DNA of 64,000 bases, from NCBI RefSeq assembly GCF_038051985.1, contig NZ_CP150291.1, forward strand, positions 1,302,001 through 1,366,000. The letters run 5' to 3'. Made by a program: the position numbers and the translations under genes. The stretch comes from Solibacillus sp. FSL H8-0523. GTDB taxonomy: Bacteria; Bacillota; Bacilli; Bacillales_A; Planococcaceae. Below the pieces are notes generated by a model. The model searched no databases and was not told where the DNA came from. It saw nothing but the letters and a program-made list of their open reading frames with translations. Positions 3,033 through 57,098 of this stretch are shown here, piece by piece. The stretch's first letter is position 1, and every line of letters begins with the position of its first letter.

Positions 3033-3065
3033 CTCATGGAGAAAATAGGTTAATCATAGTAACAA

Positions 3066-3646
3066 GTGGTTGCTTTTTCTAATAAAGTTTCACTTAATTG
3101 ATTGGTGGGCTACGGCATGACAGCATTATGGCCACGTGGTACGTGTCCATACTACTGTCTTTAATGCCGTTTGCGATGCCCACCAATCCATCATTTCACA
3201 CTCGTCATAAAGTTAAGAGCGCAAAATTAAGCCGCTTGCGCTTACGCGAGGCGGCAGATAGCGAAAAAGTTATTGTTTCTTTATTGATTATGCTTACAGT
3301 AATGCTCTGCTGATTGAAAGCTCATTTATTTAAAGTTCTCGATTATAAGTAGAAAGGTTTCAATTTAAGTGCTTTATGAAGTTTACTTTATACCAAAGGG
3401 CGAGAAGAAGCGAAGGGACGTTATCAATATATTTGCTTCAACGAAAAGAGTTGTACGGAGTGGAGGGGCGGACTTCTAGGGGATTAAGCGTGCGCGGAAA
3501 ATCCACTTTTGATGCCGCCGTAAGAGGCATCAAAAGTTAGTTGGAGCCACGCCCCCAGAAAAGCCTGCCCCGGAACGCAGTACAACGGACGCAAGCTTAA
3601 AATTAGCACAATTCAACGCATTATCCCCGTAGAATAGCGGAACGGA
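3066..3646 (+). repeat. Structured intergenic repeat cluster, copy R1 (units A-B-linker-D, + orientation)
   Basis: Non-coding cluster that fills the gap between the helicase and sigma-factor genes. Unit A (3100-3188, 89 bp) is a long imperfect hairpin closed by GATTGGTGGGC/GCCCACCAATC. Unit B (3231-3255) is a GC-rich hairpin, GCCGC...GCGGC. An AT-rich linker follows. Unit D (about 3450-3586) is closed by GTTGTAC/GTACAAC and contains the conserved block GCGTGCGCGGAAAATCC, a hairpin with a copy-specific stem (3505-3537), then TAGTTGGAGCCACGC. The right edge reads CCCCGTAG...AGCGGAACGGA. The same modules in the same order occur at 12.7-13.2, 31.8-32.4 and 46.8-47.5 kb, with reduced copies at 24.7 and 56.8 kb. 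No transposase or convincing ORF is present. A small open frame through unit A has no ribosome binding site. Confidence 0.85.
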
Positions 3647-3735
3647 TTTGAACTTATGCGGATTATCCGAAATTAATATAATGTTAGTAAAAGGAAGAAT
3701 TGGTTCGTCTATATACATAAGGGGGTGAGAAAGCG

Positions 3736-12654: not shown

Positions 12655-13199
12655 TAGAATGAGTCCTTTTTAATCGAATCCGTTCTGCTACGCTACGGGG
12701 GACGCTTTCCTGGGGGCGTGGCTCCAACTAAATGTACTGTGCCTCTTACAGCGGCACAGTACATTGGATTTTCCGCGCACGCTATATCCCCTAGGAGTCG
12801 CCCCCTTCGCTTCGCGGCACTCTACTTTGGTATAAAGTAAACTTCTTTAATAAAGTGATGAAGCGAATAAATTGAAAAGTTATCTTTTAAAATTCATCTT
12901 ATTTTTAATGAAAAGGAATCTATAAAAAAATCCTTCAATAAGGGAATTTCCTATCGATAGCAGAGGGTTGATTTAAACAGATTTAATTAGTAAGGAAAAC
13001 TTTTGCTACCAACCGCCGCCTCCGATAGCGCAAGCGGCTTGATTTTGCACTCTTTTCCTTTATAACGAGGAGAAAAAATGATTGTTGGGCCTCGCAAACG
13101 GCAATAAAGGCAGTGATAAAGACATGTATCACATGGCTTTAGCGCTGTCTTGCCGTAGCCCAACAATCAATCAAGTGAAATTTTATTAGAAAAGCAACC
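12655..13199 (-). repeat. Structured intergenic repeat cluster, copy R2 (full, inverted)
   Basis: Complete copy in the opposite orientation. Reading the minus strand: unit A (13168-13080, again exactly 89 bp) closed by GATTGTTGGGC/GCCCAACAATC, unit B (13038-13015), AT-rich linker, then unit D (about 12830-12678) with copy-specific hairpin at 12731-12765 (arms AATGTACTGTGCC / GGCACAGTACATT). Compared with R1, unit A carries paired substitutions that keep the stem (TT:AA in place of GT:AC in the basal arm, TAAAG:CTTTA in place of TATGG:CCATA in the middle). Unit D uses the shorter outer stem GCCGCGAAGCGAAGGGGG / CCCCCGTAGCGTAGCAG, shared with R3. The rest of the 758-base gap holds only the upstream terminator and the promoter region of the metallo-hydrolase. 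Confidence 0.85.
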
Positions 13200-13316
13200 G
13201 AATGTCACCGAGCAGAACTTTTTATTTGTAAAAATTACAAAAAATAATGAACATCCATTCATAAATTGTGATAAAGTATGTTGAAATAGAATTGATGCAT
13301 GAGGGAGTGAAATGGT

Positions 13317-24717: not shown

Positions 24718-24730
24718 ATCAGTGTTACAA

Positions 24731-24984
24731 GAGATTGCTGTTTTGATTGGCGTGTGCTACGGCAAGACCGCGCTAAAGCCACGTGATACGTGTTTTTATC
24801 ACTGAAATAAGGGGTACTTTTCAATCATTTGTACCCAATTCGAGTGCCGCGAAGCGAAGGGGGCGACTTCTAGAGGATTAGCGTGCGCGGAAAATCCATT
24901 CGGATGTGCCGCCGTAAGAGGCACATCCGAATTAGTTGAAGCCACGCCCTCAGAAAAGCGTCCCCCGTAGCGTAGCAGAACGGA
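24731..24984 (+). repeat. Structured intergenic repeat cluster, copy R3 (reduced: half A plus D)
   Basis: Starts with the left half of unit A (24745-24810) but the pairing right half, unit B and the linker are missing; it jumps to GGGGTAC...GTACCC and then unit D. Unit D has the same short outer stem as R2 and its own copy-specific hairpin (24898-24932, arms ATTCGGATGTGCC / GGCACATCCGAAT) between the conserved GCGTGCGCGGAAAATCC and TAGTTGAAGCCACGCC blocks. Right edge CCCCCGTAGCGTAGCAGAACGG. It looks like a deletion derivative. It lies between convergent genes. Confidence 0.8.
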
Positions 24985-25086
24985 CCCTCTTACAAGGTCT
25001 CCATTTCTTAGTTAGTAGCTTTTCAACCCTGACTTTTAGTTATTAGTTTGATTTTTACCATATTTCGCATAGAGATAAGTCTACAT

Positions 25087-31795: not shown

Positions 31796-31814
31796 AGGTT
31801 CATTACTGTAATGT

Positions 31815-32435
31815 GGGGTTGCTATTTCTAATGAAGTTTTGCTGTATTGATTGGCGGGCTGCGGCATGAAAGCGTTAGAGCCACGTCGTACGTGTCTCTA
31901 CCACTTTCTCTAATGCCGCATGCGAGGCCCGCCAATCCCAAACTTATGCCCTAGTAATAAAGTAAAGTGAAAAACACAAAACCAAGCCGCTTGCGCTTAC
32001 GCGAGGCGGCAGTTAGTGAAAATAGTTACTCTTTCTTTATTAAAGAAACTTAAATCAATGCTGCGCTGATTGAAAACTCATTTATTGAAAAGGTTCTTTT
32101 TTATTACCGTTGATTAGAAGTAGCGCTATTTTAAGAGAAATGCTTTGTTTCATCATTTTTTACAGAAACTTACTTAATGCCAAAGTAGAGTGCTGCGGAG
32201 CGAAGGGTGAGCCACAAAAACATTAGCTTCAACGAATAGAGTTGTACGTAGTGTAGGGGCGGACTCCTTGGCGATTAAGCGTGCGCGGAAAATCTGCTTT
32301 TGATGCCACCGTCAGAGGCATCAAAAGTTAGTTGGAGCCACGCCGCCCGGAAAGCCTGCCCCGGAACGCAGTACAACGGACATGAGCTTAAAACGACCTC
32401 ACCTCAACACGTCTCACCTCGGAGCGCAGTAGCAA
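31815..32435 (+). repeat. Structured intergenic repeat cluster, copy R4 (full)
   Basis: Unit A at 31849-31937 (89 bp) closed by GATTGGCGGGC/GCCCGCCAATC; relative to R1, GT:AC became GC:GC, ACGGCAT:ATGCCGT became GCGGCAT:ATGCCGC, and the middle stem is TAGAG:CTCTA. Unit B at 31986-32010 is identical in sequence to R1 (GCCGCTTGCGCTTACGCGAG + GCGGC). A linker with the hairpin AATCA...TGATT follows, then unit D from about 32240, with GTTGTAC/GTACAAC closing stem and copy-specific hairpin 32297-32327 (arms CTTTTGATGCC / GGCATCAAAAG, the same as R1 but with a changed loop). The right edge abuts the stop codon of the YisP-like gene. Two short frames inside unit D look like noise. Confidence 0.85.
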
Positions 32436-46798: not shown

Positions 46799-46828
46799 AT
46801 TCTTGTGAAAATATAGGTTCATCACCAT

Positions 46829-47460
46829 GGGGTTAATTTTTCTAATAAAATCTTGCTTTTTTGATTGGTGGGCTACGGCATGACCGCAGTATGGCCACGT
46901 AGTACGTGTCCATACTACTGTCTTTAATGCCGTTTGCGATGCCCACCAATCATTTGTTTTGCCCTTGTTATAAAGTTTAAGAGAGCAAAATTAAGCCCCT
47001 TGCGCTATCGCGAGGCGGCGGATAGTGGCAAAGTGTTACTTTCTTAATTGAATAAATTTAAATCAATGCTGTGCTGATTTAAATTTATTTATTGAAAGGT
47101 TCTTTTTTTTCCTTTGATTATAAATAGCACTATTTCAAAAGGAACATGCTTTGCTTCAACATTTTTTATAGAAGCTCACTATATGCCAAAATAGAGTGGC
47201 GCGGAGCGAAGGGTGAGTTCTAGATATACTTGCTTCAACGAAAAGAGTTGTACGGAGTGGAGGGGCGGACTCCTTGGCGATTAAGCGTGCGCGGAAAATC
47301 CAATGTTCCATGCCGCCGCAAGAGGCATGGAACATTTAGTTGGAGCCACGCCGCCCGGAAAGCCTGCCCCGGAACGCAGTACAACGGACGCGAGCTTAAT
47401 ATTATCTCAATTCAATGCGTTTTCCCCGTAGCGCAGCAGAACGGATTCAATTAAAAAAGC
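46829..47460 (+). repeat. Structured intergenic repeat cluster, copy R5 (full)
   Basis: Unit A at 46863-46951 (89 bp), closed by GATTGGTGGGC/GCCCACCAATC and very close to R1. Unit B at 46995-47019. Linker. Unit D (about 47247-47392) with GTTGTAC/GTACAAC outer stem and copy-specific hairpin 47302-47336 (arms AATGTTCCATGCC / GGCATGGAACATT). Right edge CCCCGTAGCGCAGCAGAACGGA, then a GATT-AATTAAAAAAGC tail shared in form with R2 and R6. It lies in the divergent gap between the glycan operon and the second LtaS-like gene, the only copy in a divergent position. The short open frame at 47230-47454 crosses it without an RBS. Confidence 0.85.
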
Positions 47461-47565
47461 TTATTTTTTCTTGTTAACCCCAACTTATAGCAATAAACCA
47501 AAATATGGATAAACAAAGGTGCAATGCGAGGGGCTAAAAATTTTATTAGAAAAGAAGGTTGTTCT

Positions 47566-56816: not shown

Positions 56817-57006
56817 GAATGGGGACTTTTTAATCTTCTCCGTTCTGCTACGCTCGGGGGAAACGCGTTGATGAAAGATGATTTTATGCTCGCGACCGTT
56901 GTACTGCGTTCCGGGGCAGGCTTTCAGGGCGGCGTGGCTACAACTAACTTTTTTTGCCTCTTACGGCGGCATAAAAAGTGGATTTTCCGCGCACGCTTAA
57001 TCGCCT
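56817..57006 (-). repeat. Structured intergenic repeat cluster, copy R6 (unit D only, inverted)
   Basis: Only unit D remains. On the minus strand it has the GCGTGCGCGGAAAATCC block (56981-56997), copy-specific hairpin (56947-56979, ACTTTTTATGCC / GGCAAAAAAAGT with one mismatch), a GTTGTAGCCACGCC block, GTACAAC and the right edge AGCAGAACGGAGAAGATTAAA. The left outer arm (GTTGTACGGAG...) and units A and B are absent. Confidence 0.8.
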
Positions 57007-57098
57007 TTTAGTTGCCATCCCTTTAATTTTGATAGCCAAACTATTTGAATGGCTTTTTTAAACGCCACAAAACAACGATAAAAGCCGGGGGGAATCAA

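Follow-up and report, generated by a model that had tools for sequence, protein, structure and literature searches.

A mobile two-hairpin repeat with one-strand structural selection in Solibacillus and related Planococcaceae

Mobile repeats whose folds are strikingly conserved are numerous in bacterial genomes, and whether these act as RNA or as single-stranded DNA is an open question. By description, the closest literature category to the repeat described here is that of the "mobile/repeat sequence candidates" (MRSC; PMC11109978). Such candidates, for example MRSC-65-2, resemble our unit in having many copies per genome, a long and strongly covarying stem and no consistent orientation to genes, and their authors leave it open whether the RNA or the DNA form is the relevant one. 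However, MRSC-65-2 is described there from diverse phyla and with a UYCCGG repeat, whereas our unit, again compared by description, was found in one family only and has two hairpins, bulges and divergent arrays. The STAXI motif is likewise structured and tandemly repeated, and an RNA or a single-stranded DNA role is discussed for it; unlike our unit it is mainly a pseudoknot and often lies near genes for DNA-handling proteins (PMC2864571). Bcr1 of the Bacillus cereus group, from among the stem-loop repeat families of Firmicutes, is, by description, another interspersed folded repeat of the Bacillales, given as 167 bp in 31 copies (147 bp and 12 copies in the earlier literature; PMC2267715). 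We recognised no paper as describing the present repeat; our coverage of subscription papers, among them a survey of 224 RNAs, was slight, so it may already be in print. This one family brings together a one-strand signature, tandem arrays with units of two types, a transposon carrier whose kind is identified, and a locus common to five species and conserved among them. Its hosts can be cultured and are not known to cause disease, so that for this family the choice between RNA and single-stranded DNA is directly testable.

The unit was found in a stretch of 64,000 nucleotides from Solibacillus sp. FSL H8-0523 (hereafter the window), for which an earlier note had reported four copies of an 89-bp hairpin at 3100-3188, 13080-13168 (inverted), 31849-31937 and 46863-46951. 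These coordinates are right, and each copy is 89 nt long. Each also folds into one long stem, with z scores of -6.5, -5.6, -7.6 and -7.2 respectively against 200 dinucleotide shuffles per copy, none of which was equally good (0/200 each), and the paired arm differences among the four copies read in the sequence as had been listed. The hairpin is therefore real, yet it proved to be only part of a unit of ~160 nt whose second hairpin (B) had been missed; likewise overlooked were the selection on the opposite strand, the ISL3-type non-autonomous carrier and the divergent tandem arrays of the relatives. The features of the window are as follows.

3048-3668, no strand assigned: element with the unit, best read as ISL3-type and non-autonomous (MITE-like); degraded inverted ends (TIRs) at 3048-3069 and 3651-3668, by comparison with the TIR consensus
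3100-3188, minus strand: hairpin A, 89 nt; it is the minus strand that forms the structured molecule
3231-3255, minus strand: hairpin B, a short GC hairpin, the 5' part of the unit in the RNA sense
3100-3262, minus strand: whole unit (hairpin B - spacer - hairpin A), 131.9 bits with model R2
3466-3558, no strand assigned: module C, a second structured block (GCGGAAAATCC-hairpin-TTAGTTGGAGCC), present in Lysinibacillus too
13008-13168, plus strand: unit copy 2, with hairpin A at 13080-13168; inverted element, matched part 12669-13222
31849-32017, minus strand: unit copy 3, with hairpin A at 31849-31937; left TIR 31797-31818, no right TIR at up to 5 mismatches
46863-47026, minus strand: unit copy 4, with hairpin A at 46863-46951; element 46816-47499
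24718-24990, no strand assigned: decayed fragment with partial hairpin A and module C, from sequence comparison
56837-57012, no strand assigned: fragment with only the module C end of the element, from sequence comparison

At its gathering thresholds Rfam gave no match in the whole window or in six loci of relatives, in agreement with the earlier statement that no named RNA or repeat family fits. Permissive searches returned candidates that we rejected: an RT-7 RNA of only 14.6 bits, lying beside the unit at the edge of the element, and, among the relatives' loci, T-box leaders (in two of them) and two further weak matches, all elsewhere than the unit.

Read on the strand opposite to that of the original finding, the unit consists of hairpin B, a spacer of ~35 nt and hairpin A, ~160 nt in all. 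Hairpin B has a GC stem and, when canonical, the loop CUACCACUGUAA (also given as CTACCACTGTAA). Hairpin A is built on a base of 10-11 bp, followed by a 5' bulge of ~7 nt, 5 bp and a 4-nt A-rich bulge; above these stands a long stem with a one-base mismatch, capped in most types by a 3-base loop that is closed by U-A. The hairpins of relatives comprise at least seven unrelated stem sequences with this one common architecture, and throughout an alignment of 36 sequences the bulges and loops are conserved while the stem sequences differ. An open reading frame within the unit was considered and discarded, since the frame that looked open in one unit turned out to be interrupted in a second.

Covariation among copies of a mobile repeat has to be read with some care. 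An alignment of 31 complete hairpins, 29 of them from this genome, has double changes at 16 of its 33 pairs, and none of 500 column shuffles did as well. Because such shuffles ignore descent, we wrote a phylogeny-aware test after the idea of R-scape, in which the events on each branch are thrown onto random columns (100 null sets for the 31- and 36-row alignments, 60 for the 94 units below); by this measure not one of the 33 pairs is significant. The 36 sequences, which represent two genera and were hand-picked for diversity from 133 extracted units, have double changes at 27 of 37 pairs and a covariation score of 0.488, against 0.176 when shuffled (0/500 shuffles as high) and 0.03-0.11 in controls with a slid structure; their count of further pair types was reached by 50 of 500 shuffles. 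With the phylogeny-aware null, four of these 37 pairs are significant, along with one outside the structure. Of 165 model matches the 15 weakest, including the one from genus g6, were dropped, and the other 150 were dereplicated to 94 units. Aligned by fitting to the covariance model, these gave 11 significant structure pairs out of 37 and one outside among 11628 column pairs; an unfitted alignment gave seven out of 37 and no outside pair. The lone outside pair falls in hairpin B, where it could be a genuine inner pair. Compensatory change thus preserves the fold, both inside each of two genera of one family and from one genus to the other. Taken alone, the own-genome copies are insufficient to prove structural selection; sequences from other species are required, and these give significance. 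Accordingly, the earlier contention that structure and not sequence is maintained holds through the other species, with their seven or more quite different stems, but is not shown by the own-genome copies from which it had been drawn. The significant pairs in the wider set come from our home-made test and not from R-scape itself.

The lack of any significant pair in the 31-row alignment is what would be expected if the hairpins had no function and were simply long DNA palindromes in a MITE, with arms that stay matched through template switching at quasi-palindromes or through gene conversion among the copies. Mosaic copies, too, can produce apparent double changes; the double changes on terminal branches (38 changes) possibly have that origin, and we do not rest the case on them. 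Of 109 distinct hairpins, 92 fold more stably when read on the opposite strand, with a mean advantage of 4.3 kcal/mol. G.U pairs are there in excess over A.C mismatches, by 64 to 5 cells in the 36 sequences and by 183 to 29 in the 94 units; the structures behind these counts were picked on the opposite strand with an RNA energy model that favours G.U, and three pairs were added by hand. When the structure was instead chosen on the plus strand (31-row set), the asymmetry kept the same direction, with 30 A.C against 7 G.T plus-strand cells (a hand count from the table), and the terminal branches of the own copies have a weaker split of 15 to 9. Duplex processes should yield about as many G.T as A.C, contrary to both the 94-unit counts and those with the other-strand structure; the bulges and loop retained across unrelated stems likewise speak against such processes. 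The absence of function is therefore already disfavoured, and we regard it as very improbable. Since G.U and A.C should be indistinguishable to a cruciform or to duplex repair, their asymmetry means that one strand is selected: the selected molecule is either RNA or single-stranded DNA from the reverse complement of the original finding.

Folded single-stranded DNA in recombination or replication would produce an excess of G.T over A.C as well, so that the strand bias does not separate these two. In such a scheme one strand would be exposed during replication or transfer and would serve as the substrate of a structure-reading recombinase, the arrays would be products of recombination, and the analogues would be attC sites and REP/IS200-type hairpins. 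The multiple copies, the tandem arrays and the small loops all suit this, as does the outcome of a sigma-70 scan, in which a single element, a single array and the centre of one array yielded no promoters beyond chance. Orientation to the neighbouring genes, moreover, is not consistent: excluding 12 sites with no gene on one side, the own copies comprise 12 in sense and 9 in antisense orientation, 4 that lie between convergent genes and 1 between divergent ones, and the corresponding figures in other genomes are 10, 17, 8 and 5. The 31 listed sites split 16 to 15 between the replication strands (by hand count, with the origin assumed at base 1), with no evident bias. Against a single-stranded DNA substrate stand the arm order, which is unlike the R-box layout of attC (judged by eye), and pair 135/171, which is U.G in 23 of 36 sequences and as such suits RNA better. 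The Y1 transposase (PF01797) that might act on hairpins of this kind is present in 9 of 16 genomes, our own included, yet absent from the copy-rich G001, G002 and G009, and an identification as REP/REPIN with its RAYT is disfavoured on that account. Similarly, a retron or other retroelement is disfavoured: reverse transcriptase matches occur in 12 of the 16 genomes (five in our own) and there are none in the copy-rich G001, G002 and G004. These absences weaken the REP-like and retron-like readings, while a role as single-stranded DNA remains; on balance we judge such a role unlikely, though a serious contender.

MITEs of the ISL3 family have ends that start with GG, TTGGGG further inside, 8-bp target duplications and no transposase. 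The carrier of our unit shares these traits and differs in its structured cargo, which occurs outside such ends too. A blastn search with window positions 3060-3660 returned at least 69 matches in 40 clusters in the 4.14-Mb genome itself (40 of 83 candidates were scored, and all 40 clusters were fetched), and the hairpin-only covariance model R1 gave 50 matches there, second-strand ones included, at no fewer than 31 distinct full-length sites. The long alignment comprises 31 of the 40 clusters, and 27 of those 31 entered the tree of own copies. The 31 aligned long copies have inverted ends of 22 bp and ISL3 type, with the consensus GGYTCATCACCRTAANNTGGGG; allowing up to three mismatches, this pattern matches 31 times in the genome, against zero for a reversed-pattern control. 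At least one match (L067) apparently lies in coding sequence and has no partner end. The usual element is ~0.6 kb long and lacks a transposase; it has matching TIRs at both ends, though in some copies one end was not found. Nine own elements in which both ends could be read measure 137-610 bp, the short ones being internally deleted.

Identical, AT-rich 8-bp duplications flank nine end pairs, one in this genome (L072) and the others in G004 (L176), G011 (L153) and G009 (L273, L274, L275, L277, L284 and L285). A further five agree at 7 of 8 positions (L051, L069, L155, L174, L175), and the match is poorer or absent for L049, L050, L054, L061, L063, L073, L276, L279, L286 and the window copy at 3048-3668, whose 8-base flanks do not match each other. 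In a single case, in G014, a fragment of an ISL3 transposase (3431574-3431735) is followed by the same right end (3431769-3431790). From the shared TIRs, the 8-bp duplications and this fragment with its end, the carrier in this genome and in several sister species is best read as an ISL3-type MITE, presumably moved in trans by an ISL3-type transposase. The intact ISL3 element of G005, which has close relatives in G003 and G004, starts GGGTTCT....TTGGGG, similar to the element ends and not identical to them; G013 and G014 have intact ISL3 copies too. Our own genome has only a broken ISL3 remnant, at 530831, with no element ends within 1.5 kb; a Y1 transposase match adjoins this broken transposase (G000:C1:530237-531166). 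What appeared to be an autonomous 2.08-kb element in G009 (L273) proved to be a MITE with an insertion sequence of two frames, which we take to be of the IS3 family or IS3-like, inserted in hairpin A at ~346-1810; in measured length, L274 and L284 of the same genome are similar overall.

In a second genus, four copies (L177, L179, L181, L183) lie within another inverted-repeat element, GAGGCTGGGACA...TGTCCCAGCCTC, and the unit is consequently not tied to one carrier.

If the unit travels with mobile DNA, it becomes relevant whether the resident copies are under constraint. On the terminal branches of the tree of 27 own copies, changes per site amount to 0.069 for hairpin A, 0.042 for hairpin B and 0.061 for module C, compared with 0.114 for the spacer between A and B and 0.15-0.19 for the linker and ends. 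At a locus that five species have in common, the left unit has a mean identity of 0.94 in hairpin A and 0.75 in its own spacer (its hairpin B, with 6 columns only, was set aside), with 0.83 in the centre of the locus and 0.84 in the right flank. The left flank, at 0.93, is however as high as hairpin A, and so are the other spacer, at 0.92, and the nearby coding ends, at 0.91 and 0.97. Two of the five species have a different palindrome in place of the facing unit's hairpin A, which is thus dispensable at this locus.

Constraint of this kind, together with bulges and loops retained while the stems change, could also be explained by a host regulatory RNA family, or a sponge whose many RNA copies titrate an RNA-binding protein in the manner of CsrB. 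The number of matches in sister species nevertheless ranges from 0 (G013) to 93 (G009, the most), which would be odd for a dosage-sensitive regulator, and ten flanking proteins, examined across seven loci, proved unrelated to each other and offered no partner gene. We consider a regulator or sponge of this sort rather improbable. The explanation that we hold to be probable is that the hairpin belongs to a structured-RNA unit that has spread as mobile DNA and been partly domesticated. The folded molecule would then be RNA, arising by outward or read-through transcription and subsequently cut into units, for which RNase III would be the obvious candidate, and the fold would be recognised by a factor acting in trans. 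The conservation at the five-species locus suggests that resident copies keep working; on this view the element would be a family of mobile RNAs, domesticated at least in part, and not plain junk.

Covariance-model searches were made with R1 and with R2, which spans hairpin B to hairpin A, and both models found matches in genomes of the family. With R2 these number 28 of 261 family genomes and 4 of 19 genera: 15 of 16 genomes in the own genus, 11 in the second genus (g18) and one each in two more; with R1 they number 17 of 261. A class-wide sample of 398 genomes returned our own genome as its sole match. These large searches used stricter filters, so that weak matches may be lost; among the genomes searched, the distribution is narrow. 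There was no match of the element or of one second-genus unit in plasmid and phage collections, of one array stretch in plasmids, or of one pattern in viral contigs.

The relatives with many matches also contain the arrays. In G009 the units, ~249 bp each, stand in tandem in two arrays about a common centre, for example with six plus five units on the two sides at L139, five plus eight at L141 and one plus nine at L145; in G010 there are three tandem units of ~205 bp. In the RNA sense both arrays point away from the common centre, with up to nine units a side, and the arrays hold two unit types. It is conceivable, if doubtful, that these are divergent arrays of different RNA units fired from a shared centre, processed to single hairpins that would be bound by a dedicated protein, and moved on hijacked transposon ends, which together would amount to a new RNA system.

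Several hairpins are themselves interrupted. In several genomes other palindromes lie within stems of hairpin A (L142 and L151, right unit; L030), with a shared tail TTTGCGACGAAAGCG..GACAGGAGCA, and hairpin B of L151 is interrupted by a different palindrome; hairpins would thus seem to be the target of some kind of insert. Module C, for its part, occurs in Lysinibacillus and Metasolibacillus records (L081-L100) that have no hairpin A match, and may be a separate structured repeat. At L182, a GC-rich repeat GGACGCTTTCCGCGGGCGTGGCTTGAGCC.. that is module C-like adjoins the unit on its upstream side.
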